A DNA stretch of 64,000 nucleotides from Aurantiochytrium sp. KH105 (Eukaryota > Sar > Bigyra > Thraustochytrida > Thraustochytriidae). The stretch covers positions 558,001 to 622,000 of the forward strand of contig BGKB01000028.1 in assembly GCA_003116975.1 (NCBI GenBank). Reading direction: 5' to 3'. Position 1 is the stretch's first letter, and each line of letters begins with the position of its first letter. A program made the translations under genes and the position numbers. Shown here piece after piece: positions 27,487 through 48,387 of this stretch. The notes below the pieces were generated by a model. The model had not been told where the DNA came from and made no database searches. It saw only the letters and a program-made list of their open reading frames with translations.

Positions 27487-29456
27487 GCTTAGCTCGTCGC
27501 CAAACCAGTATAACAATAACAGTAAATACAATCTCCCTCGTTCCATCGTCTCGCCGCACACCCCGTGTGCTAGCTAGCCTATACTCCGTGCTCACCTCTC
27601 TCCATTTGCCTTTCTCTTCTCTTCAAGGTCTCCTTCCTCCTAGCACACACCCTTTCGCACACCCCCGCGAGGAGGGGTCCCCGCAGAGTCCCCGCCCGTG
27701 TTTGCGCGTGGATGCGCCAGCCTCGCCGCTTGCGTCGCGCCGCGCCACCGCGGCCCTCGGCGCGCCAGGCCGCGCGCGCCGCGCCCGCGCCCGCGCCCTC
27801 GCTCGCGCCCGCGCGGCCGCGGCCAGAAGCGCAGCTCTGCGGCGGTCGGCCAGTCGAGCAGGCGGGCGGGCGGCGCGCGGCTTGGTTGGCGGCCGGCTTG
27901 GCGCGGCGCGTGCACGGCGATTGAACCGCTCTCGGCGGACGAGGAGGACGAGGACGAGAACGAGAGCGAGGACGAGGACGGGGACGGGGCAGGAGGGCGA
28001 GGAGCAGAACGCCAAGACCGCGGACGAGGCGGACGAGAAGGACGAGGCCGGCCGCGCGGAGGGCGCAGGCAGAAGCGCACGTGGGCGGGCGGCGAGAGCG
28101 CGAGAGAGCGCGGCGGCGGAGCGAGGCGAAGACGAGAGCGGCGACGGCCGAGAAAAGCGAAGGAGAACAGCGAGCGAGCGACGGCGAGCAGCGACGAGGC
28201 GGAGCAGCGGCGGCGCTTGATAGGCTTGCTCGCGGAGCGAGAAGGTGGACCTGGTCGAAGCCGAGGTCGCTGCGGTACGAGGAGTCGCGTCGAGCAGACC
28301 TTGCGTGGCGTTGGCTGGCGTTGCAGCTGCGGACTCCGACTTCGGCACCCCTTCCGTCATCTTGGCAACCCTCGCGGGCAGACAAAGCAAGCAGCCAGGT
28401 AGACCTTGGATTTCCCAGGGATCCTTCGAGCAGCCACACCAGCATAGATCGTTGCGGGAGAACCCGAGCGGCAGCCTCGAGAACGAAGTTCCGATCGATT
28501 CATTGATCGATCAACCGACCGACCGATCGACCGACCGACCCGACCAGCAACCGATCTTGCGTATACATTCATTCATCCTGCTTGACTCTAGTATTCATAG
28601 CACCAGGAACCTCTTCACGCATCCGTGCGGACCCGCAGGGCCGACCGTTCACAACCACCAAGCTCAGGCCTAATCTCAAGCCTAATCTCAAGCTCAAGCT
28701 CAAGCTCAAGCTCAAGCTCGTCTTCAAGCGCGATTGCCCTTCCTGAGGCTTCGCTATCTGCCCAAAGGGCGTCGTCCTCCCACGCCCCTTCCCCTCCCTC
28801 CTTCACCAGCAGCCGCGACGCCCTGCGCCCTGCGCCTTTAGGGTCCGCCAATTCCCGCGACCCGCTCGCTCCGTCCAGGCACCCACGGCAGAGGAGCACC
28901 CAGCGCTTGGCCTGCCTCCAAACGGGCTTCCTCCGTGGCCTCGCGTCGCCTCGCCCCGCCTCTGCTCTGCTCTGCTCGCTCGCGCATTCGTTCGTCCCAG
29001 GCGGCCTCGCCGCGAGTCCTGCGTTCTCCTTTTCCGTCCCAGGCCGCCCGACAGTGCGCGGCGGGGGGACCCGGCCGCAGCAGCAGTAGTGCCAGCAGTG
29101 CCCCCGCGCACCCCGCGCACAGTGAGTGGTAGCAAGCAGTCTTCGCGCATACGTGCGTGCGAGCGTGCATACATTCCTACGTGCATACGCGTGGCGCGGC
29201 GCGGCATTGCGAAGGCGCACGTCATCACAGCAAGTGCGCGCGGTGTGGAGGCGCACTCGGCGCGCTTCCTGCTTCAGGCGCGGCGGAGGCGGCAGAGCTG
29301 CAGCGGTGCTGTCGACGCGATACGACTGCGCCCCGAGGCCGCGACGCAACGGCGCGCAATACGGCAGGGGACAGGACACAAGGCAAGGCGAGGCAAGCCG
29401 AGCAAAGCAAAGCAAACCCCGATTGCAGGGCCGCGACGCGAGGCGGCGAGGCGACC
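27487..29456. other. spacer upstream of acid-lipase gene
   Basis: About 2 kb. Extremely GC-rich from 27660 to 28240, with GAGGACGAG-type repeats near 27940-28050 that open frames on both strands (up to 288 aa on minus); I see no family. Simple repeats follow: GACC/GATC tetramers near 28507-28543 and a CTCAAG hexamer array at 28676-28721. No gene is called. Confidence 0.5.
28676..28721. repeat. CTCAAG hexanucleotide array
   Basis: Six or seven CTCAAG/CTCAAG-like hexamers in tandem, preceded by two TAATCTCAAGC units. It lies in the spacer ahead of the acid-lipase gene. Confidence 0.8.
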
Positions 29457-30731
29457 ATGGTGACGATGTTCATGGCGTCGGCGATCGAGGAGGAGATCAA
29501 GGCGGAGGAGTCGGCCAGCGGGCTGCAGCGCATGCTGCGGTTCGTGCTGCGGTGGCTCCGCACCAGGGTGTCCAACATGAGACTGCGCAGGGCGCTCGGC
29601 GCGCTGCTGGCGATTAGCGTCACGGCAGTCCTCGTCTGCGGACTCGCGCAGCGACCAAGCGCGAGCCTCTGCATGATCGCCCAGGAGCACCTCGGTCTAG
29701 ACTGCGAGGAGCACCTCGCCACCACAAAGGACGGGTACACGCTCGTCCTCAAGCGCATCCCGAACCCGGAGGGCCAACCGGTACTTTTAATGCCCGGCCT
29801 CCTCGACTCGGCGGCGACGTTTTTGCTCCTCGGCCGCCACGATAGTCTGCCCGGCGTGCTCTTCGACAGGGGTTACGATGTCTGGCTGCTCGAGAAACGC
29901 GGCCGCGCGCCCTGGCGCCACGACAGATACACGAGCCAGGACCCCGAGTTCTGGAACTTTAGCTTTGACGAGAACATCAGGTTCGACATCCCGGCCATGG
30001 TGGAGTACGTGCATCGCGTCACGGGCAATGAGATCGCATCCATTGTCGGGCATTCAGAGGGAGGCATGCTTGCAGCCGTCGCTGCAGCCGAGAGCAAGTC
30101 CACGTCGCGGCACGTCCGCTCCATCGTGGCACTCGGCGCCCCCCTCGCGTCCTGGGGTTCTGGCAGCGGCCCGGCGACCTACCTGCCCGAGATTCCCGAT
30201 GCAATTGTGCGCAATGTACACCCGGGGCTTTTTTGGGGCGCTCTGCGCATCGTCTTCTCGGGCACATGCGGTATGTTCCCCGGGGCGTGCGTGCGTCTCA
30301 TTTGCGCCACGGCAGGATGCGCCAACCCACAGGCCTTTGATCCCGAGGTCATCTCGCGCATTTTCAACTTTTACCCGCGGGAGACCTCCCTCAAGAACAT
30401 CCAGCACTACATTCAGTGCGAACGGGCAGGCCGTCTGCAGCACTATGACTATGGCGAGGAAGGTAACCTCGCGTACTACGGGCAGCTCGAGCCTCCCGCG
30501 TACGATCTTGGCAAACTCGACACGCCGCTGGCCCTCTTTTACGGCGCCAGCGACCGCCTCGTGACGCCATCTTCGCACGAGACAGCTGCTGCTTCTCTGC
30601 GGCCTGGTATCCTGCGCCAAGTCAACCTCACGGGCACTCACGGCCACGTCGACTTTGTGTGGGCGAAGTCGGCCAAGCGTGACTTGTATTTGCCCATCAC
30701 CGACTTTATCTCCTCCATGTTGTCCAACTGA
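29457..30731 (+). CDS. acid lipase (lysosomal acid lipase / gastric lipase family)
   Basis: 424 aa alpha/beta hydrolase of the acid-lipase family, which cleaves sterol esters and triacylglycerols. The N-terminal lid-type region gives TTKDGYTLVLKRIP (family: EV.TEDGYIL.L.RIP), then LLMPGLLDSAATF and DRGYDVWL. The nucleophile elbow is GHSEGG with Ser200. The acid is Asp366 in YGASDRLV and the base His397 in GHVDFVW, matching the family's NHLDFIW. The triad is complete. A hydrophobic segment at about 43-60, after a basic stretch, is a signal anchor or internal signal, pointing to the secretory or lysosomal route. The start is chosen at 29457 (context ACCATGG). The open frame upstream to 29157 is GC-rich and unlike the family. 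Single exon. It may degrade storage lipids, inferred from the family only. Confidence 0.88.
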   Translation: MVTMFMASAIEEEIKAEESASGLQRMLRFVLRWLRTRVSNMRLRRALGALLAISVTAVLVCGLAQRPSASLCMIAQEHLGLDCEEHLATTKDGYTLVLKRIPNPEGQPVLLMPGLLDSAATFLLLGRHDSLPGVLFDRGYDVWLLEKRGRAPWRHDRYTSQDPEFWNFSFDENIRFDIPAMVEYVHRVTGNEIASIVGHSEGGMLAAVAAAESKSTSRHVRSIVALGAPLASWGSGSGPATYLPEIPDAIVRNVHPGLFWGALRIVFSGTCGMFPGACVRLICATAGCANPQAFDPEVISRIFNFYPRETSLKNIQHYIQCERAGRLQHYDYGEEGNLAYYGQLEPPAYDLGKLDTPLALFYGASDRLVTPSSHETAAASLRPGILRQVNLTGTHGHVDFVWAKSAKRDLYLPITDFISSMLSN

Positions 30732-31221
30732 GCGAGGCGATATGTGTCCATTCATCGCTCAACTGTGCCATGCCCTGTCCTGACCTCCAGACAATCGTTG
30801 TTGTATTCTAATTTGGCCTTAGTCTGTGAGCAGACCTAACTTTTGGATGATGTTCTTCTGTTTCTAGACTTCTCACACCTTGTCAACTAACTCGGAGGAA
30901 GACACACAGGCGCAAACGCATTTGCATCTTCTCCAAGCGTCAACGATGGTGCTTGTGCAAACTCATCTTGCGGAAAGGAACAAAAAAGGAAGACAGAGAA
31001 AAGGAACAAGATGAAGAAAACAGAGTCGCAAAGCAGGCAACTGAAATCAAGGTTGACTCTTTGCGTATAGTTTGTTGAGTATGATAGAGATGGGGTGGGG
31101 CTCTGCGGAGAGGCAATCTTAAGTCAATCTCGCATCTCTGTTGGAATGAGAGGGAAACAGGAAAAGATTGTGAAAATGGTTCTCATGTCAAAAGCAGCCA
31201 GACTCGTTGTCGAAAGATTGC
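30732..31221. other. convergent 3' spacer
   Basis: 490 bp between the acid lipase (plus) and the TMEM135-like gene (minus), less GC-rich than the genes. An A-rich purine stretch is seen near 30975-31025. No gene is seen. Confidence 0.5.
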
Positions 31222-32979
31222 TCACTGACGAGGCGCGTCAAGATCATCGTCGCCTTCCGCGACGACGTCATCGGCAAGGCCTTTCTCCGAAGAATCCGAA
31301 TCCGAGCCAACGCTCAGATGCGATAGAAATCGTTCGGAAACAATACGAGGCATCGCGTAGAACTCGTGGCGCTTGTCCGTGTCGAAAAACTTGTTCAGCA
31401 CCGAAGAGTAGGCGCTTCGGAGAAAAGTTGGATGACGCGTGTAGCAGTGTGTGACAATGGCGAAGCAGTACGCGAACACCAGGACTTCGCCATTACGAAT
31501 GGGACGAACGATGTTTCGAGAGACGACATAGTTCCATCGACCTTCGACAGCCTTGCTAAAGACATAGAGAGCAAGTTCAATCCGGCGATTCTTCTTTTCT
31601 ATCAGTGTAGCCAAGCCTGCCCAAAGACCAGCAAACATGTACACCGTCTGGCCAAAAGGCCCAGCGCGCGTGCGCGTGAGGCCGAGCGACCGCATCGCCG
31701 ACACGGAACAGAATCCAATCGTGCAGTATAGTGACAGAAAGATGGAACTGCGAAGCACACCCTGCAAAACTCGCTTCACCGTGGACACGGGTCGCTTGAC
31801 GAGAGATTGAGGGTAAAAGAGAAGAATCGGCACGCTGAAGACGGGCAGGTACACGGGGACGGACTTTTGCATGGCCCGCACAAAGAATTTAACGGCAAAA
31901 GGCGCCAGGCTCATCGTTGGATGCATGAGCTCGCCACCGGGCCAAGAGTCTGCCCCCAAGGGCTCGCGAAGAACCCGTGGAGAGCCTGCCATGCGCGAGC
32001 GCGCGGCGGCGAGCGCCGCAAGAGGGAGAGGGTCGCCTGTATAGATGCTCGCAAGAGACTCGCGGACTGGCGCGGGCATTTGCGAATGGACGTTGAGAAA
32101 GCGCACGTACGAAGGATCGAGCGTATCGGGAGAAAACATCCAGCTGTGGAGCATCGACGCGCTGGCCACGGACATGAGCATCGTGTCGGCGTTCTCGAGG
32201 GTCGGAAGCACCTTGCGCGCGGCCAAAAGCTTGATCTGGAGCTCGAAAGCGCGAACGAGCGCAAACAGCGTTATCGCCCAGCGCGAGGGGCGCGGGATCC
32301 ACAGCAGCGCCGAGCCCGCCGCGAGTCCGGAGATAAAGGCGCGGTACCGACGCAAGAAGGCCCAGCGTGCAGGCAGTTTACGCGAGGCAAACATGCCTCC
32401 ATTGAAAATGGCGAGCAGCGAGCCTAGAAAGAGACCGTATTCGCGCGCCCCGATAAAGAGCACGCGCCGATTGACGACGGTGCGTCGCCCGCGGGCCAGG
32501 TCGAGCAGCGGGAACAGCGAGTTCAAGAAGACCTTGCCCGCGTACCCGAGGACGAAGCCCTTGCCAATGTTTCGCGTAATGGCGCCCCACAAGTCGTCGT
32601 AATGAGCTGCGGCTCGCCGTCGCTCGGGCCCGCCGCCGCGGAGGACTTGCCGCGCTGCGTGTGCGCCGGCGTCCGCGCGCGTCTTGGTCGTCACCGGCCC
32701 AGCTTTGTACCCGGAGAGGCTCTCGTTGGCGTCGTCCACGCTCGCTGGCATCGACGAGAAGCTATTGGTGCGCGAGGGCGGCAATTTGCGCGTGTCGAAG
32801 TTATCCCCGCGCTCGGGCTCGCCATGGTCGCTGCCCGACTTGCTGTCCACGTCTGCCGCCAGGCTCTCGTTCTCGTCCGCGGCGTTGCCTTCCGAGATCA
32901 CCGCCAAGCGCCTCCTGTCCGGCAGCTTGAAGAGGTCCGCCGAGTAGCTCTCCAGCCTGGTGATCAGGTTCAGGTCCAT
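31222..32979 (-). CDS. TMEM135-like multi-pass membrane protein
   Basis: 585 aa. The match to TMEM135 (peroxisomal/mitochondrial membrane protein linked to lipid metabolism and organelle dynamics in animals) rests on the C-terminal half: FGQTVYMFAGLWAGLATLIE, KKNRRIELALYVFSKAVEG, and near the end HPTFLRSAYSSVLNKFF. Several hydrophobic stretches are visible (about residues 180-200, 215-235, 380-410, 425-450, 500-515). The N-terminal 110 residues are hydrophilic and variable, and the protein is longer than the roughly 460 aa of animal TMEM135. The start at complement 32979 (MDLNLITRL) is the first in-frame ATG. Single exon. Orthology to TMEM135 is likely. The exact organelle is inferred. Confidence 0.78.
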   Translation of the reverse strand: MDLNLITRLESYSADLFKLPDRRRLAVISEGNAADENESLAADVDSKSGSDHGEPERGDNFDTRKLPPSRTNSFSSMPASVDDANESLSGYKAGPVTTKTRADAGAHAARQVLRGGGPERRRAAAHYDDLWGAITRNIGKGFVLGYAGKVFLNSLFPLLDLARGRRTVVNRRVLFIGAREYGLFLGSLLAIFNGGMFASRKLPARWAFLRRYRAFISGLAAGSALLWIPRPSRWAITLFALVRAFELQIKLLAARKVLPTLENADTMLMSVASASMLHSWMFSPDTLDPSYVRFLNVHSQMPAPVRESLASIYTGDPLPLAALAAARSRMAGSPRVLREPLGADSWPGGELMHPTMSLAPFAVKFFVRAMQKSVPVYLPVFSVPILLFYPQSLVKRPVSTVKRVLQGVLRSSIFLSLYCTIGFCSVSAMRSLGLTRTRAGPFGQTVYMFAGLWAGLATLIEKKNRRIELALYVFSKAVEGRWNYVVSRNIVRPIRNGEVLVFAYCFAIVTHCYTRHPTFLRSAYSSVLNKFFDTDKRHEFYAMPRIVSERFLSHLSVGSDSDSSEKGLADDVVAEGDDDLDAPRQ

Positions 32980-33686
32980 GCTCTCCTCCTCCTCCTCCCG
33001 CGCGGCCCTCTCCTCCCGCCCGCCTCCTCCGGGCGCGTCCTCGCGCTCGTCCTCCTGCGCCTTGGCCTCGCTCCCCTCGCCTCCTCCTTAGTTCGAGTTC
33101 TCGCCGCGGGCGCCTTTTGGCCCGTCGCCTTCGCGCGTGGCACGCCGCCTTCGCGCCCTCGCCCTCGCCCTCGCCCTCGCTCTGCGCGCCGCCGCAGCCA
33201 AGTCGCGCTCGCTGCCGCGCGCCGCGCGCCGGCGCGATGCGATGCGCTGCGCTGCGCTGCGGCGCGGCGCGGCGCGATGCGATGCGCTGCGCTGCGCTGC
33301 GGCGCGGCGCGGCGCGATGCGATGCGAGTCTGCGCCCTTGCCGCCGCTCCGCCATCCGACGCCGCCCGGCCCACCGCGCTCCGCTCGGGCACGCCGCGGC
33401 GGCCCGGCACGGTCGGACCGCGGCGTGCCCGGCCCGCCCCGCGGCGATCGCGGCGCGGCGAGGGCGGCGGCGCGAGGGGGGGAGACGCAGGGGCGGCGCG
33501 AGCGGCGCAGGGGCTGCGTCGCCGCCGGGGCCGCAGACGCGCGCGGGCGCGTCGCAGAGCCGGGCTGGGAGCGGGGCCCGGCCCCGAGGCGGAAGGAGCG
33601 AGGTCCCAAGAGGAGAGGGCGACGGGACAGGACGCACGGTCGGTCAAGCGAAGCTGCCACGGCGAGCGAGCGGACGGAGGACGGGG
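32980..33686. other. GC-rich spacer between TMEM135-like and LUC7-like genes
   Basis: 707 bp, very GC-rich, promoter side of the TMEM135-like gene and 3' side of the LUC7-like gene (both minus). Long open frames on both strands translate to Arg/Ala-rich sequence with no family likeness. It contains a 40-bp repeat (33231-33327). Confidence 0.55.
33231..33327. repeat. 40-bp GC-rich tandem repeat
   Basis: The segment starting GGCGCGATGCGATGCGCTGC recurs at 33231, 33271 and 33311, a 40-bp period with about 2.4 copies that are almost identical. The unit itself is built of GATGC, GCTGC and GGCGC pentamers. Confidence 0.85.
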
Positions 33687-35069
33687 TCAACGACGACCGC
33701 CGCTGCGACCCTGGCGCTCGCGAAGACGCCGGGCGACCTCGGCGTCGGAGTCGGAGTCGGACGCGGAGGATCCCGAGGCCGAGCGGGACCGACGGCGGTG
33801 CCGCGAGGAGGAGGACTTCTTGTGCTTGTGACTACCGCTCTTGTGCTTCTTGTGCTTCTTGTGCCTCTTCTTGTGTTTCTTGGAATCCTTCTTCGAGGAC
33901 TTGCGCCGGTCTCGGCCATGTCGCTCGTCACGATCATCGGCGTCGCCGTCACTGGCGTCGTCGCCACTTGAATAGTGGTAACGGGAACGAGAACGACGGT
34001 CGTTGCCGTCACCGTAATCATACTCGTCGCTGCGTCCGCGCTTGCGACTGCCGCGACTGTAACTGGGACTCCGCCGACGCCGACCATGCGACTCGTCGTC
34101 CCGCCCACGACCCCAATCCTGTGAGCGATCCGCGCTTCTCTCTCGTGCGAGCGTCGCCGATGCAGCAGCATCTCTGTCTCCTCGAGGGAACCTACGTTCA
34201 TACTCGCGACGGTCAACGCCGCCACGTCTCTCAAAGCTGGAATAACTGCGCGGGGGAGCATCATAAGCAGGCGCGGGTCTGCTGTTACCCCGATATCCCC
34301 CACCTCCACCTCCACCTCCGCCAAACCCAAAGCTACGGCCCGCGTAACTATCGAGCGGACGTGCCAAGCTCTTATTGAGCTCCTCAAGTTTGGCGCGGAC
34401 GAGCTTCCAACCGTTGTATTGCTTACCCGTAAAGTGGCTCAAGAGCCGCTCGTCGTTGTCGCCGCGCGAAATCAGGTTGCCACTTACAGGACACACGATA
34501 TGCAGACGTTGCGAGTCTGGCACGGAGAACAAGACGTTGCGTTGCGCGCGGAGAGTCTCGACACGCTTGTACAAGTTGAATGCCATCACGACCTCCCCTT
34601 GTTTCGCCAAGGCCTGGAGACGCTCGAGCGTCTCATCCATTTCGTCCTCGAGCTCCAAAATCCTGAGCGCGGAATTTGCCATTGCCTCGGGGTCTTCTGG
34701 GTTGCTGCGCGCGAGGTTATCCTTGATTCGATAATCGACTTGACGCACCAGTTTCTCCAAAAATCGTCTCGTCTCTTCTTCGTACCCGTACCTGCGCTTC
34801 TCTTGTTCGCTGAGCTCTTCCCAGGCCGCCTTGCACTCATCGTCCGGGATCTTGGGGTTTGGCCCAAGGTCTGACTTGGTTCTGCGGAACAACTCGTACG
34901 GCGAGCACCCGACGAGATACATTTTGTCCACGTCACGATCGGAAAAGTGCCGTTTTCTCGTTTGTGTGCGCTGCTCCGGGGCGAGGTTGCGCTCCGCGCC
35001 CATGAGCTCGTCCAGCAGCGCTCGTTGAGCCTCCATGATGCGGTGCACGACGGACGCACTATCCCCCAA
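33687..35069 (-). CDS. LUC7-like splicing factor with degenerate zinc fingers
   Basis: 460 aa. The N-terminus follows LUC7 proteins, U1 snRNP-associated factors that help select 5' splice sites: AQRALLDELMGAERN (family MRALLDQLMG), FSDRDVDKMYLVGCSPYELF (family FTDDRVCKSHLLDCCPHDIL) and SDLG. A helical region (130-180) is followed by LHIVCPVSGNLISRGDNDER and LLSHFTGKQYNGW (family LRVCEVCSAYLGLHDNDRR, DHFGGKLHLGF). Compared by eye, finger 1 has lost most ligands (family Cys to Asp48, Cys to Ser56, His to Tyr58, later Cys/His to Pro/Asp), and finger 2 keeps only Cys193 and His212 (Ser196 and Tyr218 replace the others). The C-terminal 220 residues are Gly/Tyr-, RS- and Lys-rich (SKKHKKRHKKHKKHKS). 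It is probably nuclear. It may be a divergent paralogue of a canonical LUC7 elsewhere. Confidence 0.82.
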   Translation of the reverse strand: MGDSASVVHRIMEAQRALLDELMGAERNLAPEQRTQTRKRHFSDRDVDKMYLVGCSPYELFRRTKSDLGPNPKIPDDECKAAWEELSEQEKRRYGYEEETRRFLEKLVRQVDYRIKDNLARSNPEDPEAMANSALRILELEDEMDETLERLQALAKQGEVVMAFNLYKRVETLRAQRNVLFSVPDSQRLHIVCPVSGNLISRGDNDERLLSHFTGKQYNGWKLVRAKLEELNKSLARPLDSYAGRSFGFGGGGGGGGGYRGNSRPAPAYDAPPRSYSSFERRGGVDRREYERRFPRGDRDAAASATLARERSADRSQDWGRGRDDESHGRRRRSPSYSRGSRKRGRSDEYDYGDGNDRRSRSRYHYSSGDDASDGDADDRDERHGRDRRKSSKKDSKKHKKRHKKHKKHKSGSHKHKKSSSSRHRRRSRSASGSSASDSDSDAEVARRLRERQGRSGGRR

Positions 35070-35182
35070 AGCCTCTTGCGCTCGCCGACTCTCCTTCCAG
35101 AGTGAAACTCACGCTGGTCCTGGACTGGCGCGGACGCCTGAAGCGAGCTTCCTTTCCTCCCCCTGCCGCCGCCGCCGCGGCC

Positions 35183-35214
<32 letters not shown>

Positions 35215-35567
35215 CGCCGCTGGTTTTTGCTTTTGCTTTTCGAGTTGCCTTTTTACGCGCGCACCCATTCGTATTTCACTCGTCTTTTTACTGCCAAGCT
35301 TGGATTTGATGATGGCGACAACGACAGTCACAAGCCATCGCAAGAGAGAGTTCGGAAACGAGCAGGATAGCGAAGAAAACCAAGAGGAATAGAAGCGCTC
35401 GTGGCTCAGACGCCTTGAGAATCCAAGAAAAGGCCCCTCACGGCGGCTCTGCCATCATTTCGTTCTCACAGTAAAAATAACTTTTCGATTTGACCTTCTA
35501 CTACGAGCACTTACTCCTCGCTTTAAACAAAGCAATCAATCATACATTGGGCTTACTGCTGCTGCTA
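35070..35567. other. spacer upstream of LUC7-like gene, with (GCC)n
   Basis: 498 bp between the LUC7-like start and the 3' end of the JmjC-glycosyltransferase gene, both on minus. A GCC trinucleotide run at about 35166-35220 lies just upstream of the LUC7-like start, and AT-richer sequence near 35470-35560 probably serves the 3' end of the fusion gene. No gene is seen. Confidence 0.6.
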
Positions 35568-37544
35568 TTACTTCTGCCAGGAACGAGCCCAGTGATGCAC
35601 GGCAAGAGCACCTTGCGCAGCATAGTCCTTTGAAGATAGCACCTGCTCAGGAGAGGCGTCGTTGGCCAAGGGATAGAGTGTTCTCGGGGGAAGAATGAGA
35701 ACGCTCGAATTCTCGCGTACTTGCGGCAAAACCACACGAGTAAACATCCCCGGGCCCGTGCGGGAAATCGTTTGAGAAGATGAACTCACCGTTTTTGCAC
35801 TCTCCAGTACCTCTTGATCCTGTGGCGTGAGGAAACTATCCAAAAGACCGCCCACGGCGCTCAGGGGTGAGCTCGCCTTGGCAGATCCCACTCGTTCAAC
35901 GAGAGCTTCGAGGACCGGATGGCCTGGCGTTGACGCGATAAAAGCATTATTGATCTCCAAAGCGCCCACGTTGGACAGCCCACAAATAAATTGCACATCC
36001 AAGGCCGCCATCTCATTCATAAATTCGGTGATGGAACGGACACACTCAAAGTCGACATCGACGTAGACGCCTCCATAACGCCGCAGAATCTCATAGCGCG
36101 CAATGTCTGACCTTTCGCCCACATTTGCTGCTGTTTCGAACGCGCGCCGATTTTGCAGGTCGAGTTGTGAAATGTCGGCATCGCGCCAAAGTCGGAGCTC
36201 CCAGCCCTCATCAGCAAGAAATCGCTGCCAGGACTTGACCCAGTCACCGTGGTTGGGGATGTTCTTGGAGCCTAACCAAATGTGGTGAACGATGCGAGGA
36301 ATGCACTTTGGCCCGTGTTGGACGCGCGGACGGCTCCAAAGCTCGTCATATCGTTGCTGGATCGCGTGCATCCAGGCTTCGTCGTCCGCACCCCATAAAT
36401 TGGGTCGAGTCTGTGGAGCTTTGCATCCCTCGAGACCCTCTGCAAAGCTCGCCGGCAACGGGACGCGGCGCGCCAGTCCGCTCTCGTCTGGAAAGCGCTC
36501 CTGCATCGCCTTGAACCACGCCGTCTTGAAAGGACTTAATTTCTGCAACCGCATGGCTTGCGTGACCTTTCCAAGACTTGCGCTGCTCGCAAAATTCTGC
36601 GTCACAGCCACCGTCATGTCCAAGTTTATCACAATATGCCACCATCCACGAGGAACAAAGACTGTATCTCCAGGTGCCTGTGTAAATTCTAGCAGTCCTA
36701 GCGCTGCGCGATCAAGCGTGGGAAGCACCTCGGCAAACCACCGCTCCACGTTTACATCCCGACGGAAACGACGCACTTCTTCCTCCGGGACGTCTGGCGG
36801 AATGAGCACCCAACGCTTGTGGCCTTCAAGAAGTGTGTTCCATGCCGAGGTCCCCACAGGATCATAGTGGATTCGCGTGCCCGAGCGCGCAGGCCCGATG
36901 AGTAGCCATCGAAAGCGTGGCCGGCCTTCGAGGCCGTCAGCCTTGTTTTCAGGGCCCTGATTTGTGCTCGCAAGCTCGAAAAGATCACGTCCAGCAAAAA
37001 CACGCGGAACCTCGTACCCGGCCAGAATTGCATCGCGCGCTGCCGCAGACTTTGCATCTGCGGCGTCTGCACGTACACTGAGATCTTCAAAGAGATAAAG
37101 CGGACACTCGTCGATCTCTGCCCGTCCCTCCGCGTACGATAGGTACTCGCGAAGCGTGAATTTCTGCCCGGTATACAGCGCAAACGATGCGTCCCCGTAC
37201 GTGTCGCCGAGTGAGGCCGCCGTCCAGCTTCGTGCTTCCCACGCGTCGGCGCAGCCAAGGAGCGCCAGCGGTCGTCCCCGCGCGAGAAAGTCGCGCTCGA
37301 ACTCCTCTGGTGCAAGTTCGCTTGCGTCTCGCAGCTCGAGGTCGCCAAAGTGAACACGATCCGCCGCTTTCTCCTTTGTTCCTTCTTCGAGAAACGTCTC
37401 GAGCTGCTTGCGGAGTGCCTCGGCCGAGGCCCGCGTCTCGCCGTCCTCGGCAGCGCCCTGGTCGCCGTCGCCCTCGCCGTCGCTCTCGTCGTCGTCTGCG
37501 AGCGCCGCCGCCATGGCGAACAGGTCCAGCGCGGACTCGGCCAT
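35568..37544 (-). CDS. JMJD6-type JmjC hydroxylase fused to GT32-type glycosyltransferase
   Basis: 658 aa, two enzymes in one uninterrupted frame. Residues about 65-325 form a JmjC/cupin domain closest in pattern to JMJD6: GTRIHYDPVGTSAWNTLLEG then HKRWVLIPP, and PGDTVFVPRGWWHIVINLD then TQNFAS. Fe(II) ligands His226, Asp228 and His303 are in place, and Lys243 is the likely 2-oxoglutarate contact. Residues about 413-658 form a glycosyltransferase with a DXD motif (GT32, OCH1/DXD sugar-binding family): IPRIVHHIWLGSKNIPNHGD, ERSDIARYEILRRYGGVYVD then VDFE (Asp496, Asp498), and VHHWARSW at the end. The start is at MAESALD. No signal peptide or membrane segment is seen, so a cytosolic or nuclear place is expected. 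JMJD6 hydroxylates lysines, so sequential hydroxylation and glycosylation is a natural inference. Function is unproven. Confidence 0.9.
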   Translation of the reverse strand: MAESALDLFAMAAALADDDESDGEGDGDQGAAEDGETRASAEALRKQLETFLEEGTKEKAADRVHFGDLELRDASELAPEEFERDFLARGRPLALLGCADAWEARSWTAASLGDTYGDASFALYTGQKFTLREYLSYAEGRAEIDECPLYLFEDLSVRADAADAKSAAARDAILAGYEVPRVFAGRDLFELASTNQGPENKADGLEGRPRFRWLLIGPARSGTRIHYDPVGTSAWNTLLEGHKRWVLIPPDVPEEEVRRFRRDVNVERWFAEVLPTLDRAALGLLEFTQAPGDTVFVPRGWWHIVINLDMTVAVTQNFASSASLGKVTQAMRLQKLSPFKTAWFKAMQERFPDESGLARRVPLPASFAEGLEGCKAPQTRPNLWGADDEAWMHAIQQRYDELWSRPRVQHGPKCIPRIVHHIWLGSKNIPNHGDWVKSWQRFLADEGWELRLWRDADISQLDLQNRRAFETAANVGERSDIARYEILRRYGGVYVDVDFECVRSITEFMNEMAALDVQFICGLSNVGALEINNAFIASTPGHPVLEALVERVGSAKASSPLSAVGGLLDSFLTPQDQEVLESAKTVSSSSQTISRTGPGMFTRVVLPQVRENSSVLILPPRTLYPLANDASPEQVLSSKDYAAQGALAVHHWARSWQK

Positions 37545-37780
37545 CTTGCTTATCAAAGCCGTCTGCCTCTCGGGTTCTCTTCCCCGTCTCCCTGATCGCT
37601 TGATCGATCGGAGCAAGCGATCGATCGATCGTGGGCTGTCTTGCGCTCGCCGCCACTGCTGCAATGTGTGAATGGAATGGAATGGCACACAGAGCAAGGG
37701 AAAGCTGCGCGACGTCGGTCAGGGTCCAGCTTGGAACGGACGCGGGTTCGTCTCGCAGATCAAGATCGATCCATGGGTCC
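37545..37780. promoter_or_regulatory. 236-bp head-to-head promoter region
   Basis: Sole sequence between the divergent starts of the JmjC-glycosyltransferase gene (minus) and the PAN-TTL gene (plus). It contains a GATCGATCG-rich palindromic cluster at about 37598-37632 (GATCGATCGGAGCAAGCGAT, then CGATCGATCG) and a GGAATGGAAT repeat near 37672-37685. It is likely bidirectional. If either gene starts further upstream than I chose, the gap is shorter still. Confidence 0.5.
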
Positions 37781-40171
37781 ATGGCGCGCGCGGAGGGCTC
37801 CTGCGGCGCGGGCTCTGGCGCCGGCGGCAGCGGCTGCGGCGGCAGCGTGGGCCTGAGCGCGGCCACACTGCTGCGCCGCGTCCCGTCCCCGCGCGCCGCC
37901 TTCCACGGCGGCGGCCCCGGCCCCGCGGACCCGGCGGACTCCAACCCGCTGCGCGCGACCCACGCCTACGCGTACGCGCGCTCCCAGTCCGCGCGCGACG
38001 TGCGCGCAGCGTCGGATAGCAACCTCGGCGCTCGCGGCGTAGCTTCGGGCCTCAGTGCGAGCTTTCGATGGAGTCCAGCATCCACCCCGACCGGCGTGGC
38101 AGACGCCGGAGGCAACGGCAGGTATCAAATTCCGCGCAGACCGAAACGCACACGCTCAAATGACCTTGGCACCAACGCAGCTGCCCAGGCGCTCGCGCAA
38201 GCTGCCGCCCAAGCCGCTGCGTGGCATGATGAGAGTCGCGAAAATCTGATGGAGACAGTTGTCTTTCATGTGATCGCTCTGCGTGCCATCGTGCTCGGGT
38301 TCTCTGCCGCGATTCTCCTTCTCGGAATCTCTGCTCTCGTCGACGCCTCAGGAGCTCGCGTGTGGCTTGGCATGGCCGACCAGGGTAGCTGCGAGCTTCC
38401 AGAGGGGGGCTTTGCTGCTCCAACTTTCGATGCTAGCATCAGTGCATGGGACACGCGTCTTTCGTGCCGGGATGCCCAGGCGTGGGACCACATTCACCTG
38501 GTGGGTCGCGAGTTGCATGTGACGTCTGCCGACTCACTTGGCGCATGCTGTAGCGCCTGCAGCGCGCGACGGAGATGCGTCGGCCTTAGTTTTAACTTCG
38601 TCGCGGATCGTTGTGTGCTCTTCAAGGACCACATTTCTGACGCAGTCCAGGCAAGCTGGACACGCTCTCTCGTCATCCACACGCAGGCTGGTGTCAACGC
38701 GAGCAGCTTGAGTAAACATTGCCGTCCTGCGCGGGAGACGGAACGCTGGGATCCGGCATGGACGTACGAGCGAGCGCTTGCGCCTCCAAGTTTTAGTGTG
38801 GAAAGCACGTATCGGGATCCGTCTTCACGAAATCGACGGACGCGGACAGACTACCGCGATCACGTCACTGGCGCCTTGCGAGACGTAGGTCTTGTGCCAA
38901 TTTCATCGTACGAATCTAGCGTGCGAGCCGACGTGGTGTGGGCTCTTCATTGGGAGACAGAGCAGGCGTTTGCAGAGGCAGCCCTTGGCCCTTGGCAGCT
39001 GCTCAATATGGTCCCGGGCGCTCTCGACCGTACATTGGGAGAAAAGGACGCCCTGCACCGCACGACACACGCTGCACGAGCGCGACTGGGTGCAACTCGC
39101 ATTGACGCCTTCATGCCACATTCTCTAGTATTACCCGACGAAGCGGCTGCACTCAGCGCGGAACCAGATCGAGTTTGGATCTGGAAACCGCTTCGCTCAT
39201 GGTCGGGAGATGGCATTGCGGTGCTGACGGGGTCGCAGGCGCAAGCTCGCGCCACGCGCGAGCGACTTGGCACGCAAAAGGTGATTTTGCAAAGCTACAT
39301 TCTTCGCCCGCTCACGCTCATGGGCCACAAATTTGATGCGCGATGGTGGGCCATCGTCACCAGCGTGGCTCCTTTAAGAGTTTATTCTATTCCGGACGCA
39401 TACTTGCGTCCGGCTGCTCTGCCGTATCGTACTGATCGCGCAGGCCTTGTGGACAAATGCATTCATGTGACCAACGGCAAGGTCTTCAAGCATTGCAAGG
39501 GATCGCGCAAGCTGGGACTTGCATCGCATCACGTTCGAGACCGATTTCTCCTCGACACGTTGCGTGACGAAGCAGGCGGTCCTTTGACGGAGGATATGCG
39601 GGACAATGTTCGTCGCACGCTCGTATCCCGTACGCAGACGTCGCTCGTGAAAACGATCCTGCTGGCCCTACCCGGTTTATTGGAAGCAAGGAATTGGACG
39701 CAGGCGCGTACATTTCAATTGCTTTCATTTGATGTAATCTACGACGCCGCGACCGCTTCTCCGTGGATCGAAGAAGTGAACACCAATGGCTTTCTTGGCA
39801 GCGGCGTCCTCGAGGTCTCGCGCGCAATGTCGTCTGATATTCTTCGTGACATGTTCGTCCTCGTTGGTGCGGCAGGCTACGATCGCTCCACGTATCAAGC
39901 GAGTTTGGAGCGCGCTATTCTCCGACGCGGTTCAGACGCGAGGGCGTCTGTTCCAGCTGTGCAAGCAGCCGTGGATGAGCTTTTTGCGCCGCAACGTTCG
40001 TGGAAACTGATTTACCCGCGCATTCGCGACCCCTTGCATGCTGAGATCGATGCGTTCGCGCAAGACGCAGGTGACGACGCAGAGCACGGCAAGCTTCTCG
40101 CGGATCTTCTGCCTGGAATCCCGGGTCAGCCTGCGCTTTCAACAAAACTCGACGCGGAGCTTCCCCTGTAA
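37781..40171 (+). CDS. membrane-anchored PAN/Apple plus tubulin-tyrosine-ligase-like protein
   Basis: 796 aa. After a Ser/Ala/Gly-rich N-terminus comes one transmembrane segment (about 164-186, IVLGFSAAILLLGISALVDA). A Cys-rich PAN/Apple-like module follows (about 228-290, LGACCSACSARRRCVGLSFN then RCVLFKDH). The C-terminal half is a TTL-type ATP-grasp domain: VWIWKPLRSWSGDGIAVL (about 466), VILQSYILRPLTLMGHKFDA then RWW (about 500-520), IHVTNGKVFKHC (about 560) and FDVIYDAATASPWIEEVNTN (about 650-670, metal-binding Glu/Asn). TTL enzymes ligate amino acids to tubulin in the cytosol. Here the anchor and Cys-rich PAN module suggest a luminal or outside catalytic domain, so the substrate may not be tubulin. 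I chose the start at 37781; the frame is open to 37631. Confidence 0.85.
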   Translation: MARAEGSCGAGSGAGGSGCGGSVGLSAATLLRRVPSPRAAFHGGGPGPADPADSNPLRATHAYAYARSQSARDVRAASDSNLGARGVASGLSASFRWSPASTPTGVADAGGNGRYQIPRRPKRTRSNDLGTNAAAQALAQAAAQAAAWHDESRENLMETVVFHVIALRAIVLGFSAAILLLGISALVDASGARVWLGMADQGSCELPEGGFAAPTFDASISAWDTRLSCRDAQAWDHIHLVGRELHVTSADSLGACCSACSARRRCVGLSFNFVADRCVLFKDHISDAVQASWTRSLVIHTQAGVNASSLSKHCRPARETERWDPAWTYERALAPPSFSVESTYRDPSSRNRRTRTDYRDHVTGALRDVGLVPISSYESSVRADVVWALHWETEQAFAEAALGPWQLLNMVPGALDRTLGEKDALHRTTHAARARLGATRIDAFMPHSLVLPDEAAALSAEPDRVWIWKPLRSWSGDGIAVLTGSQAQARATRERLGTQKVILQSYILRPLTLMGHKFDARWWAIVTSVAPLRVYSIPDAYLRPAALPYRTDRAGLVDKCIHVTNGKVFKHCKGSRKLGLASHHVRDRFLLDTLRDEAGGPLTEDMRDNVRRTLVSRTQTSLVKTILLALPGLLEARNWTQARTFQLLSFDVIYDAATASPWIEEVNTNGFLGSGVLEVSRAMSSDILRDMFVLVGAAGYDRSTYQASLERAILRRGSDARASVPAVQAAVDELFAPQRSWKLIYPRIRDPLHAEIDAFAQDAGDDAEHGKLLADLLPGIPGQPALSTKLDAELPL

Positions 40172-40414
40172 GTAAGACTTTATAAAAGGAGAGCACGATC
40201 TTTTCTTTTTTTTATCATCTTGATCTAAATCGTGACAAACGTGACATGATTTCTAGACTACCGTGGGTATGTATGTATATACCGGGCAGGTTGCATCTAA
40301 CCAGTGAAGGTGACGTGATGTAATGCTCGCTTACTCGCCCGGGATTTCCTAGGGGTGTGGTGTGGTGCGAGGTGATGTGGTGTGGTGTTGCCAGACCTCG
40401 TAAGAAAAGGTCAT

Positions 40415-40966
40415 TTAAAGAATGTTGAGAATGCCGAGACTCGAGGACACCGCAGTGTACACGACTCCAATGAGGCAGGTCCAGATGTGAGGAGCCATGC
40501 GCGACTTGGTGTAGCGCGTCTCCGCCGAGACAGCGTAGCCATCGGCCCAGGCCAGGCGCGAGCACATGTAGACAGCGCCGCACAGCGAGGTCACAATCGG
40601 GTGGCGAAGGCCGCCGATGAGCGAAAGGGCGAGAAAGCTAGGGTAGGTCTCGAGGGCGTGCTGATGGCCGCGCTGCACCTGGTTAAAAGCCTTCGCGTCC
40701 TCCGAGTCGCCTTCGGCGTACATCTTCGGGTACTCGACACCATACTTCTTGCGGGCCTTGCCCACACGCGAAGCCAGCGAAAGGAGGGTGAAGGTGGATC
40801 CAACCACGTTGAAGAGCGCCACAAGGCCGTACAGCTTGGGAACCGCCAGGATGCTCGAGCCCTGCACAGGCTCCGGCAGGAGCTCCTGAAAGTTCGTCAG
40901 GGCGTACGTCTCGCCGATCATGAGCGCTGCGATGGGCAGGCCCCGCTTCACCAGGATCTCGATCAT
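40415..40966 (-). CDS. MGST3: microsomal glutathione S-transferase 3 (MAPEG family)
   Basis: 183 aa membrane protein of the MAPEG family. It matches MGST3 closely: SRVGKARKKYGVEYPKMYAE, FNQVQRGHQHALETYPSFLA and GGLRHPIVTSLCGAVYMCSR. In animals MGST3 conjugates glutathione to lipid hydroperoxides and can make leukotriene C4. Four hydrophobic segments fit the family topology, with the conserved R-x-H-Q/H-x-x-L-E loop that binds glutathione after the first. It is some 30 residues longer than human MGST3 at the N-terminus. It lies convergent with the PAN-TTL gene (243 bp apart) and divergent from the RhoGEF gene. Single exon. In a lipid-rich organism a role in lipid-peroxide detoxification is plausible. 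Confidence 0.92.
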   Translation of the reverse strand: MIEILVKRGLPIAALMIGETYALTNFQELLPEPVQGSSILAVPKLYGLVALFNVVGSTFTLLSLASRVGKARKKYGVEYPKMYAEGDSEDAKAFNQVQRGHQHALETYPSFLALSLIGGLRHPIVTSLCGAVYMCSRLAWADGYAVSAETRYTKSRMAPHIWTCLIGVVYTAVSSSLGILNIL

Positions 40967-41777
40967 CTTTCCACGCTAGCGCTCGTACCTGAGGCTTTGC
41001 TATGTGTCCACGTGCACCGTTTCGTTGCTGCTGCCGCTGCTTCTTTTGTGTCTGGGTTTGGTTTGTTTTGGTTTTGGATTTGCTTCGTTCGTGCGTTTGG
41101 ATTTGCAGCCTCCTGCGAAATCCTATCCTCGCGAAGCTCTCGCAGAACACTCCCCCCCTGCCCCTTTACGGATCTTTATTCCACCGTACTTGATACACCA
41201 GCCGGGCCCACTAAATGGGTGTACTCTGCAAGTATAAATTTCACCGAACATCCGGCCGAACAGAGAAGAAGAATCCGCGGCTGAAAAAGGGTTGCGCAAG
41301 TCTAACCGTTGAAAACTGCGTCCCACTGGCGCTTGGCCCTGCGCCGGCAAGTCGCTTAAAGGAGGGCGCCGTGCTCGCGTCCCCAAAAGTAGTAGCTAGT
41401 TCGCTATAGACGGCCAGCTGACACGCTAAACCTTGCACGCTGTACTTTGCGAGCTAGCCCACGACCGAGCGAGACCCCGAAGAAACGCATTCCTAAACTG
41501 GCTTCAAGATCCTGGTTGGCACAGGCCCAAGACCCAGGCGTCCAGCCGGCGTGGTCGAAAATAGGGCGAGAGAGGGCTTGAAGACCAAGCAGGCGCGGAC
41601 GTTGACGGGATTGAACGGTCGATCAGGAATAGAACCGGTGGGATCTTGCCATTGGCTTTTTCTTCGTCACGGGTACGGTGCTTTGGCGGCGATAGGTCCA
41701 CATAATCGACGCTGATAGGCTCACAACGGCAACAAAGCGTCAAAGGAAAAGTGGGACGCAGAAGCTGAGCCGCGCCA
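40967..41777. promoter_or_regulatory. divergent spacer between MGST3 and RhoGEF genes
   Basis: 811 bp between two start codons on opposite strands, so it must hold both promoters. A T/G-rich tract lies at about 41025-41100. No gene is seen, and no motif I can name. Confidence 0.5.
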
Positions 41778-44700
41778 ATGCAAGACGCAACGCACGCACG
41801 GATGATGGAGTACGAGCGCGACGAAATTGCGACGACGGAAGAGGATGAGGAGCACGAGGAGGTCCTATCGCCGGACTCTACCTCGCGAGGTAGCTTTGGC
41901 GAGCTCGAGGAGGTCCCAGGCGAGCTGGACGAAGCACGTCGTGTTGCTCTTGAACAGGTGGAGATCAAATCTGAGGCAAACTTTGACCACGACGCCGAAA
42001 ATAGCCACGGCCACGGCCTTGATCTCGCCCAGGACCTTCGCGACGGTGACTTGCACAGACTTTCCAGTAGACCTGGTCATGGCGCGCTCGACTACAGTAA
42101 TGATGTTGTTGGAATGGACGACGACGAATACGACGACGACGATGAAGAAGGAGAAGAAGTATACCAACAACAGCAGCATCAGCATGAGGATGAAAATGAA
42201 GATGAAGATGAGGAAGAGACACTTGGCAGCGATGAACATGAAGTCGACACGGATGAGGGCGGAGATCAACGACGTTCTCCGCGTCTAACGATTGATCTGC
42301 AACAAAGCGAACCTTCAGATTGCAACGCAGCGAACGCAATTACGGCGGAAAGCGCAAGCGCAAGCGGAATTGCTCCAGAGCAATCTCGACGAAGATCTTG
42401 GTCCGCTGCCTCGTATCTGCGCAGCAAAACGCCGTCCACTCCTCTTCGTGGACGCAAAAAGGACAACGCAACGGAACGCGCACGAGCCAGCAGTATCGAG
42501 TCGAGTGCAAGCAACATGGCATCTCCTTCCTCTGCTGCAAGTCATAGACTCCCTCGAACCCCCCTATCCGCGTTTCGCAAGCGCGCTAACAACAAGACCC
42601 CAAGCAACGACGCTGCCGCAGCAGCGCAGCCTTCAGTGCGCAGACGAACATTCTCCGCCAGCAGTTTCGGCAGCCTTCTTTCAAGCCCAATGTCCGCGCT
42701 TCGTGGGCGGAAGACACCCCAGTCAGCAACACCGCGTAGTGATGCAACGGGAGGCTTTCGAGAATCGCCGCAACGTAGACGCCGCTTCTGGTCGAACGCA
42801 AGCACGGAAAGTGACCACGAAGCCAGCCAGGCACATGACGAAGAAAAACGATCAAGCAAGGAATCGAAGATGGGGCGTTTCCGCGCTGCCTTCAAGTCGA
42901 GCAAGGCGCGAATCTCCAAATTTGGGCGTCGCGCAAGCCAGGAGTCTCTCGCTTCCCGCGACGATGCAAGTGATCGAGAAGGCAAAACTGCGTCTCCTCG
43001 GGAAGAGGTGGTGGCTGCATCACCTCGTTCTCTTATTTCAGAGAGTGACAACGAGATCGAGTACGGCCCCAAAGATGACCCTCATGGCGACTCGAGGAGC
43101 GAGACAAGCTCTCAGCGGACCGTGGAGGTCCCCTACGAGGAGGAGATCCGTGTTTGTCTTCTCTCCTTTTACATCGAGCACAATCCGGAGAAGATTGGAG
43201 ATGTGCCCATGCTTTTAGAAAAGTACGCAGGAGACGAAGAACAGATGCTTCTCAAACTCGAAGAAAAGTATGATGCAGATGTCCTTGCCTACGAGGATGC
43301 GCTTGAGGTCGTACAAGACTACGAAGAGAGAGAGGGAGTAAGACTGCTCGAAGTTGACGATGCCACCTCTGAAAAGGACCATCAGAGCCGCCCTCCATCC
43401 CCGCTGCGTGAGCCCGAGTCTGCACCTTCACATGCGCAAAGTCCCAGATCCCCACGTCTCCCTCGAAGACCTGGCTCTCCTCCCCTTCCCCAAAGACCAG
43501 GGTCGCCGCCCTTGCCTCACAGACCCGGATCGTCCGAGGCAGCAGCTAAAGAAAATCCGAGCAAACGAGAGTTTGCAGAGCCCTTTGGTACCATTGAGAG
43601 AATTTGGCTCACTACGAAGCCCGAGCTTCTGCTTGGTATCTCGTATCATGAACATGCGCGTGCCATCCTTTTGCAGCTTAACGAGAGTTTCATGAGGCAA
43701 GAGTCTGTGGAGTCTGTGCTGCAGACACTTCGTCGTGCGCACAAATATTATTTGCACGGTGCGGACGAAGCGCTTGAAGAAGGTATCCGCGAGCTGAAGG
43801 ATGTCTTGCAAAGTCACGACCGGCGAGAGGATCGAGCTGATGCAGCACCGGAAGACGACAACGGGGAAGATGAAGTTGCTGCGGAGTCACCTCAGCCACA
43901 TCACGATGAGGACCAACGTCTTGAGGCTGCCTCTAAAGCCTCGAGCACGCTCGATGCCGAGCGCGAGAGCGCGTCTGATGAATCTTCCGTCGAGGACACC
44001 GCAACAGGGGTCGGTGCTCTCATCCGTAAGAATGAAGCAGCGATTTCTGCTGTTCAAGAACAGGAGGCCGTGAATGCTCCAGATTGGATGTGGGAGGGTC
44101 GCGAATTCGATGACGACGGTGACGACAACGGCAATGAGGATGAAAGCAAGAGGCCTCAAGAAACTGAAGAGGACCAAGATGATGATCGCAGCGAGAGCAT
44201 GTCGGAAGGTAGTTGGGACCGTGACACTGAAGCTTCCGCGCCAGAGAATTCGAGTCATCAGCAGGAGGCTTCTCCCGAAATCGCTTTGTCCGTCTCGGAA
44301 AAGGAAGACGAAATGCTCATGTCGCCACTCTCTCCAAGTACAGGCGAGGAGACATCTGATTTCGGCGATGGCGGCGGCGACGACGACGACGACAACGAGA
44401 ATGTGAGCATAAGCGATGGCGAAAATTCTCCTGTGGCGCCACCTGTGCCTTCACGAACACAATTTGACGCACTTGACACGGCTGGACTTTCGTACCGGGA
44501 CCGAGTGGATGCGGAAAGCGTACGTCAATGGAAAAAGAGGCTCCGGCTCATGGACAATGCTCTCTTTGAGATCATCGACACGGAGAGACAGTACTTTAAT
44601 CACCTCGACACCATCAACGACCTAGTGATTGGTCCTATGCTCGAGCAGGTCCAGAAGCGCAAGATCCGTTTCACACAAAAGGGCGCTGATGCGCTTTTGG

Positions 44701-46244: not shown

Positions 46245-46779
46245 AGTAATGTAAAAGGTAAACTGCACGAACTTTACGAGTACAACTCATTGCAAAGTTC
46301 CACTCCTTGTACAAGCATGGCGGCTCAGGTCTCCACATCGCCCTCATCATGCCCTTGTCCCACCAGCCAGCCAGCCAGGGATGGCACCGTATTTTAGCAT
46401 CCCACCTTGAACCATGAACACACCATTCTCGCATCTCGACGTCTTTCACTCACGCCTCCACATGTTTTGCGTCTCGTCTCGCACGTGGACGACGAAGCGC
46501 CAACGCGGAGAAGCAAGCCTCGACGATGCGAGCAGGTCGAGGGCATTCCCTCCACCCCTCGAGATCGCTCGCTTCAACTTGCTTGCTTCCTTGCTTCCTT
46601 GCTTGCTTGCTTGCTTGCCGACGAGCCGCAGCAAGCGCAATAAGCAAGACGCAGTTCGGATTTCTCCTGCCGGGCGACCAGGCCTCGCTCGGGAAGCCGC
46701 GGTGTGGCAAACGCGGCGCGCGGCGGGAGCGAGCGGCGCGCGCGAGAGGGCGGCGGGAGGGCGGGGACTGCCGCGCGGG
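46245..46779. other. spacer upstream of Cys/His-cluster gene
   Basis: 535 bp. CTTG/CTTGC repeats are present near 46573-46620. The open frame from the next gene runs back to 46414, but that part looks non-coding. No other gene is seen. Confidence 0.5.
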
Positions 46780-47005
46780 ATGGCGCCCCCGCGCGGTAGA
46801 GCGAGCAAGGGCGCCGCGGCGGCGGCCAAGGAGCTGGATGCCGCGACGCCGGCGACGGCGGCGACGAGCACGACGAGCGCGACGACGACGCCCGCGACTG
46901 CGACGGCGGAGCCCGCGCCGGCGGCGGCAGCGGGGGCGGAGGCCTCGACCTCGCGCGCCCGAAGCCGCAGCGCGGGGAGCGGCGGCACCGGCGACAAGCT
47001 CCGGG

Positions 47006-47037
<32 letters not shown>

Positions 47038-47820: not shown

Positions 47821-48387
47821 GGCTAGCCTAGCGCCGTGCACAAAGTTTATTTCCCCTTTACTGTCACTTTCTCGTTGTTGATTTTTTCTCTCACGCATCC
47901 GGATGCATGTATTTTTGCATGCGTGTATTCATTCGTTCGAGTGATAGAGCCGTGTGCCATTCACGCATGATGGCGGCTTTTTGCATTTTGTTTTGCCCAA
48001 AAGTCATCGACGTTGTTCTCTAACAATAGAATGGATGTTGTTGCCTCGAATGGACGCGCATGTACCAGTGGGCCTATCCACGATGGGCCTGGCTTGGCTT
48101 TCAATGATTTTTTTTTTTTCTTTGGCTCCCGACGACTTGGCAATTCTCGTTTTGCGGAGAGCGAGCGGTGCGACCGCGCGCGGGCACGCTCTAGCGCTCG
48201 TCTGTCTGTTCCCCTGTCTGTTTGTCTGCCTGCCTTCTTCTCTTGCTTGCTTACCTGCTCGCTCGGCAGCGCACATCGCACGGCCAGACGTCGCGTCGAA
48301 ACGCCAAATTTGGTTGAAGAGTGGCAGGCGCTGCGAGCTGCCGACGCGACAGCGACAAGGCAAGCGCGTGACAAAGACGCGAACACC
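47821..48387. other. spacer upstream of U1A/U2B'' gene
   Basis: 567 bp. ATGCATG-type palindromes lie near 47900-47925, with a T12 run near 48109-48120 and CTGTCTG/TTGCTTGC repeats near 48205-48255. No gene is seen. The frame of the next gene is open to 48013, but this part does not look like protein. Confidence 0.5.

Follow-up and report, generated by a model that had tools for sequence, protein, structure and literature searches.

The window analysed here, a stretch of 64,000 nucleotides of Aurantiochytrium sp. KH105 (GenBank assembly GCA_003116975.1, contig BGKB01000028.1, positions 558,001 to 622,000, forward strand), contains a gene for a single polypeptide in which a JMJD6-type JmjC oxygenase is followed by a glycosyltransferase (GT) of family GT32. 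On balance, we lean towards this JmjC-GT32 protein being a soluble bifunctional enzyme that would hydroxylate a protein side chain and then glycosylate the new hydroxyl. This is the best reading because the same genome encodes an unrelated hydroxylase-GT fusion, in which an EglN-like oxygenase is joined to a GT60 domain; the fusion of the two domains alone would be a weak argument for it.

A JMJD6-type hydroxylase and a GT32 glycosyltransferase share one reading frame

The initial annotation had proposed one frame joining both halves without stop or intron between them, and open reading frame, coordinates and Pfam domains agree on this. The 658 codons contain no internal stop. Pfam searches returned JmjC at residues 213–318 (59.5 bits, cut-off 24), Cupin_8 at 79–321 (55.8 bits, cut-off 27.4) and Gly_transf_sug/GT32 (PF04488) at 459–509 (37.9 bits, cut-off 23), and a scan of the protein against NCBIfam gave no match. 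The Fe ligands H226, D228 and H303 as well as D496 and D498 stand where they had been placed before, as seen in the alignment to JMJD6 and in the GT alignment, respectively. The gene and its parts are as follows:

35568..37544, minus strand: complete JmjC-GT32 coding sequence, 658 amino acids; ATG at 37544, TAA ending at 35568, no intron needed
37365..37544, minus strand: acidic N-terminal tail, residues 1–60, net charge -13, without a hydrophobic anchor
36447..37343, minus strand: JMJD6-homologous hydroxylase half, residues 68–366, the C-terminal stretch alignable to human JMJD6 included (phmmer E 1.1e-45; Pfam JmjC/Cupin_8)
36861..36869, minus strand: H226-x-D228, two of the three predicted Fe ligands, aligned to JMJD6 H187/D189
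36636..36638, minus strand: H303, predicted third Fe ligand, aligned to JMJD6 H273
36309..36434, minus strand: linker, residues 371–412 (about 42), stop-free; residues ~385–404 form a helix in the GT model
35571..36308, minus strand: GT32-type GT-A glycosyltransferase half, residues 413–658 (Pfam PF04488, AF2, Foldseek and VIA matches)
36051..36059, minus strand: D496-V-D498, predicted DXD metal/nucleotide-sugar motif (invariant alignment columns)

Among the 59 Cupin_8 and at least 26 GT32 places listed for this genome, only the JmjC-GT32 protein combines both in one frame. A pair of catalytic domains that share a frame and each keep a conserved active site is not a chance event.

The JmjC half is a close relative, but not the orthologue, of JMJD6

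Human JMJD6 was the best match in the PDB to residues 68–366 (E 1.1e-45, phmmer), the next family being JMJD5 (5.5e-5), and 105 of 268 aligned residues (39%) are identical between the JmjC half and human JMJD6. All 12 positions checked in the active-site region are kept, the three Fe ligands included. Residues Y150, N236, K243, N307, T315 and N317 correspond to JMJD6 Y131, N197, K204, N277, T285 and N287, which we take to be residues of the 2-oxoglutarate pocket and its surroundings.

Three further JMJD6-type proteins are encoded in the genome, each on two contigs (C17/C36, C10/C7 and C93/C31). The C17 protein scores 311 bits to JMJD6 and the C93 protein 187, followed by the JmjC-GT32 protein with 160 and the C10 protein with 152. 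In a tree of eight rows, human JMJD6 and the C17 protein cluster at 96/96, and the JmjC-GT32 protein lies outside that cluster. Since it is the C17 protein that pairs with human JMJD6, the JmjC-GT32 protein is, by these comparisons, a JMJD6-type paralogue, the orthologue of JMJD6 being another protein of the genome.

The paralogues also differ in what accompanies the JmjC region. The C17 protein, which has a Lys/Arg-rich tail, gave no Pfam domain at E 0.1 besides Cupin_8 and JmjC, whereas the C10 protein contains an F-box-like region (22.2 bits, under the cut-off of 24.3) and the C93 protein a long C-terminal extension. No F-box was matched by Pfam in the JmjC-GT32 protein at E up to 1. JMJD6, JcdI and JcdH groups have been described across protists, JcdI and JcdH with F-boxes (PMC9485057, in part), and the latter two groups may be those of the C10 and C93 proteins. 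On C93 and C31 (L014 and L015), the C-terminal part recalls APH-type kinases by HGDL..N and DFGD-like stretches that were spotted by eye, but Pfam returned no kinase domain for L014 at E 0.1. A 695-residue frame on C72 and C155 (L016 and L017) looks by eye like another JmjC-type fusion, its N-terminal part resembling a methyltransferase and its C-terminal part being of JmjC type.

Some JmjC enzymes have RNA substrates, TYW5 among them, and an RNA or DNA base could be hydroxylated and then glycosylated, similar to base J or to tRNA hydroxywybutosine. We regard such a substrate as very unlikely: no sequence feature of the JmjC-GT32 protein points to it, and the protein is acidic overall, with a net charge of -27. 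Moreover, the nearest solved relative, JMJD6, is a protein lysyl hydroxylase (PMC6663879, in part).

The GT half has a predicted GT-A fold and resembles bacterial and viral GT32 enzymes more than the genome's own

An AlphaFold2 (AF2) model of residues 381–658 reached a mean predicted local distance difference test (pLDDT) score of 89.5, and the modelled GT half matches solved GT-A enzymes in Foldseek and VIA, among them Och1, which we take to be a GT32 enzyme. On the strength of this model, a GT-A/GT32 fold with an intact DXD motif is confidently predicted. Structure prediction had been suggested as a check on both halves, and it served one of them: the GT half folds confidently, whereas the JmjC half was poorly modelled in the full-length protein because the input alignment held GT rows and none from JmjC. 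Toxin and effector transferases match the GT half as well, by profile and by fold, because these enzyme groups share one fold, YeGT, PaToxG, YGT, Och1 and SetA being tied within ~1 Z in the fold comparison. A toxin-like reading was nevertheless discarded: because the Pfam signature is that of GT32 and no export signal was seen, the half is filed as GT32 only.

Scored within a single program, the GT half reaches no more than 29 bits to the genome's own GT32 frames as compared to 134 bits to the best bacterial GT32; other programs gave at most 26.5 bits and at most 50.4 bits (blastp) to the own GT32s. We built a GT tree of 64 rows, namely the JmjC-GT32 protein, 8 own rows and the best 55 of 103 bacterial/viral rows. 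In this tree, whose rows were chosen by likeness to the query, with long-branched own rows and other eukaryotes left out, the JmjC-GT32 protein stands apart from the own paralogues and together with 49 bacterial/viral rows at 84/86, a value that is not starred; the branch of the GT half is long (1.26) and carries no other row. Derivation from an own GT32 paralogue is unlikely in view of the 29 versus 134 bits and of this tree position. A side observation concerns one own GT32 protein of 839 residues (L220:1442-3961, on C17), which has a weak, sub-threshold polysaccharide pyruvyl transferase match before the GT32 domain (22.5 bits, cut-off 25.3).

Searches with the GT alignment yielded 366 relatives in genomes and 438 in IMG/VR, of which the best 80 of each were kept, giving 160 loci with flanks of up to 4 kb and 5346 open reading frames of at least 80 amino acids. 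No JmjC partner was detected in these loci, neither with the JmjC half as query (E up to 0.01) nor with a profile that combines the JmjC half with its three paralogues of this genome (E up to 1). This profile does recover two distant own JmjC proteins that were not used to build it (116 and 74 bits). A viral or prokaryotic source of the whole fusion was rejected: tblastn searches of IMG/VR, run with the GT half, with the full-length protein and with the JmjC alignment, gave no relative, nor did a search of a phage collection.

Bacterial kin of the GT half lie beside nonribosomal peptide synthetase (NRPS) genes in two of eight plasmid stretches and near an MbtH-like gene in a third (plasmids of Candidatus Fukatsuia, Pantoea and Aulosira; L043, L044, L046), which suggests peptide products as substrates of some soluble GT32s. 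These neighbourhoods, as well as the long branch of the GT half, would fit two independent activities, or a GT that acts on a cytosolic small molecule, lipid or glycan and carries the JmjC half as a passenger. We hold this to be quite unlikely, since the checked catalytic positions are kept in both halves, as expected if both are used, and since the JmjC-GT32 protein lacks the anchor of the other judgeable own GT32s.

The protein probably resides in the cytosol or nucleus

Of the at least 26 GT32 places in the genome, 19 were examined, the JmjC-GT32 protein included, and two of the others run off the available DNA. According to simple hydropathy scores, as distinct from a localisation predictor, a hydrophobic segment precedes the GT domain in all 16 judgeable other GT32s (13 genes and 3 second alleles), their best 19-residue Kyte-Doolittle (KD) values ranging from 1.44 to 2.73. 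In contrast, no hydrophobic anchor was found by hydropathy in the JmjC-GT32 protein, which reaches a maximum KD of 0.97 before the GT domain. A cytosolic or nuclear place had been proposed before, and the missing membrane anchor bears this out: the protein is probably cytosolic or nuclear. With neither a hydrophobic segment nor a basic run present, a Golgi location is unlikely, and a cytosolic one is more probable than a nuclear one.

Another hydroxylase-GT fusion of this genome provides a precedent

A frame of 681 residues on the minus strand of contig C74 (L232:1158-3200, within 194500-199000) encodes an EglN-like oxygenase followed by a GT60 domain. Its oxygenase is closest to EglN1 among solved structures (E 2.2e-15), with HxD, H and R aligning by eye, and the protein has no strong hydrophobic segment (maximum KD 1.29). 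The EglN-like oxygenase and GT60 families also occur side by side on contig C174. Going by its domains, the L232 protein is of the published PHYa-Gnt1 type of Skp1 modification, a fusion reported for many PHYa genes of protists (PMC6437050, in part).

This precedent bears on how the two halves of the JmjC-GT32 protein might cooperate. They could share a target protein or complex and yet work at separate sites in it: the JmjC half would hydroxylate one residue, sense O2 or dock, and the sugar of the GT32 half would go to an ordinary Ser, Thr, Tyr or Asn. Soluble enzymes that act on host-cell proteins are indeed among the fold and profile neighbours of the GT half. We consider this arrangement unlikely, however, because the unrelated prolyl 4-hydroxylase (P4H)-GT60 fusion of the same genome is of the type whose GT is expected to act on the hydroxyl made by its partner (PMC6437050; PMC3515798, both in part). 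The hydroxylate-then-glycosylate proposal of the initial annotation thereby gains an intragenomic precedent, the action on one and the same residue being drawn by analogy.

If the protein works as we propose, the JmjC half would use Fe(II), 2-oxoglutarate and O2 to hydroxylate a protein side chain, and the GT32 half would then move one sugar from a nucleotide sugar onto the new hydroxyl; GT32 enzymes are retaining, and if this one retains as well, the sugar would be alpha-linked. Thanks to the fusion, the enzyme would not release its hydroxylated target before the sugar is attached, and the glycan would become O2-dependent. In this scheme we infer catalytic activity, a protein substrate and action of both halves on the same residue, as well as the type of residue and the sugar. 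Lysine is a first guess for the residue, and only that, because the protein is a paralogue and not the orthologue of JMJD6.

Several observations weigh against hydroxylation followed by glycosylation. In the full-length model, whose alignment held GT rows only, pLDDT stays below 50 across most of the JmjC half. No relatives of the fusion were found in bacterial, viral and phage searches, this genome being the only eukaryote covered. An oxygenase is fused in only one of six GT60 frames examined, the five others being without. GT32 acceptors also include glycans, lipids and small molecules, and the NRPS and MbtH-like neighbourhoods of the bacterial kin point in a similar direction. Finally, the JmjC-GT32 protein has no basic cluster resembling a nuclear localisation signal, whereas the own C17 JMJD6 has its Lys/Arg-rich tail.

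Soundness of the genomic region

The assembly comprises 76 Mb in 367 contigs, and many inspected genes occur in near-identical pairs, as if both haplotypes had been assembled. Positions 41202-49076 of the window pair with contig C26 at 95%; the pairing starts sharply at 41202, and C26 goes on into sequence that pairs largely with C1. For positions 23000-41201, no second-haplotype copy was found in the assembly, so that here either identical haplotypes were collapsed or the stretch is present on one haplotype only. Contamination of the region is unlikely because the assembly's only match to LUC7 sits in this copy-less stretch.

The initial annotation had raised the worry of an assembly join. 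It is reduced for the gene itself, which shows no compositional step between the domains: GC content at third codon positions is 0.595 in the JmjC half, 0.595 in the linker and 0.575 in the GT half, and is higher (0.85) in the first 60 codons. The worry remains for the region, which lacks a second-haplotype copy where many genes are paired. That the halves or the region do not stem from the same place or organism is, all the same, extremely unlikely, as the frame crosses the joint without such a step and the copy-less stretch, with its LUC7 gene, looks native and perhaps represents collapsed identical haplotypes.

Pieces of a PfaA-type polyunsaturated fatty acid synthase were seen on contigs C72 and C155, each near a contig end, at 930 bits and below the cut-off of 1010; PfaA-type matches also occur in 11 of 14 control genomes, none above the cut-off. 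These pieces are consistent with a labyrinthulomycete placement.

Neighbouring genes and a possible target

The fusion gene is flanked by the following genes:

33687..35036, minus strand: LUC7-family protein with a Lys/Arg/Ser-rich tail; next gene downstream of the fusion on the same strand, ~530 bases off
37781..40171, plus strand: tubulin-tyrosine-ligase family protein, divergent neighbour (Pfam PF03133, 86.6 bits)

The LUC7 neighbour is the only LUC7-family match found in the genome. JMJD6 hydroxylates lysines in Lys-rich, in disordered and in Arg/Ser-rich regions, its animal substrates including LUC7-like proteins (PMC6663879, PMC9371714, both in part), and over 100 lysine hydroxylation sites have been assigned to JMJD6 (PMC9371714); the term 'glycosyl' is absent from the main text of the latter source (PMC9371714, in part). 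To regard the LUC7 neighbour as a target of the JmjC-GT32 protein is speculation, as gene neighbourhood means little in eukaryotes. It is a possible, though rather doubtful, extension that a second, independent O2-dependent pathway of intracellular glycosylation operates in protists, in which JMJD6-type lysine hydroxylation, e.g. of the LUC7 Lys/Arg-rich tail, would be followed by GT32 capping. JmjC-made hydroxylysine would then be an acceptor and not an end product.

Comparison with known systems

No JmjC-GT or JMJD6-GT32 fusion was seen among the listed titles and abstract starts of the open-licence PMC literature. Hydroxylase-GT fusions are already known from PHYa-Gnt1 and the collagen lysyl hydroxylase LH3; the pairing of a JMJD6-type domain with GT32 may well exist, annotated or unnoticed, in other protists. 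As a single chain with two intact predicted active sites, the JmjC-GT32 protein is directly expressible and testable.

Each half has relatives of its own. The JmjC half shares with JMJD6 the sequence identity and the 12 kept positions described above, yet JMJD6 has its grouping partner in the C17 protein, with no further Pfam domain than Cupin_8 and JmjC. JcdI and JcdH are likewise JMJD6-clade paralogues with extra domains (PMC9485057, in part), but they carry an F-box, whereas the JmjC-GT32 protein has a GT32 domain and no F-box match. To the GT32 family, represented by Och1 and by bacterial and viral members, the GT half is linked by PF04488 above cut-off, the DXD motif and the Och1-matching fold; it differs in that the protein lacks a membrane anchor and is fused to an oxygenase.

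Among bifunctional enzymes, PLOD3/LH3 and the mimivirus collagen-lysine enzymes are alike in that, as far as their partial descriptions go, one multifunctional protein makes and glycosylates hydroxylysine; their substrate, however, is collagen. They are secretory-pathway or viral proteins with other oxygenase and GT domains. The general build of a cytosolic hydroxylase-GT fusion, i.e. a 2-oxoglutarate oxygenase and a GT in one chain without an anchor, is found in the JmjC-GT32 protein. PHYa-Gnt1, formed by the Skp1 prolyl hydroxylase and GT60, is similarly a single chain of hydroxylase and GT that lacks a clear anchor. It differs in using an EglN/P4H-type oxygenase and GT60 instead of JmjC and GT32, and in that its target, a proline of Skp1, is known in other protists. 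The JmjC-GT32 fusion suggests that the JMJD6-type hydroxyl, whose purpose is largely open, may serve as a glycosylation acceptor in at least one lineage. Together with the PHYa-Gnt1-type fusion of the same genome, it would imply that hydroxylase-GT fusions arose on at least two occasions, drawing on unrelated oxygenases and different GT families.
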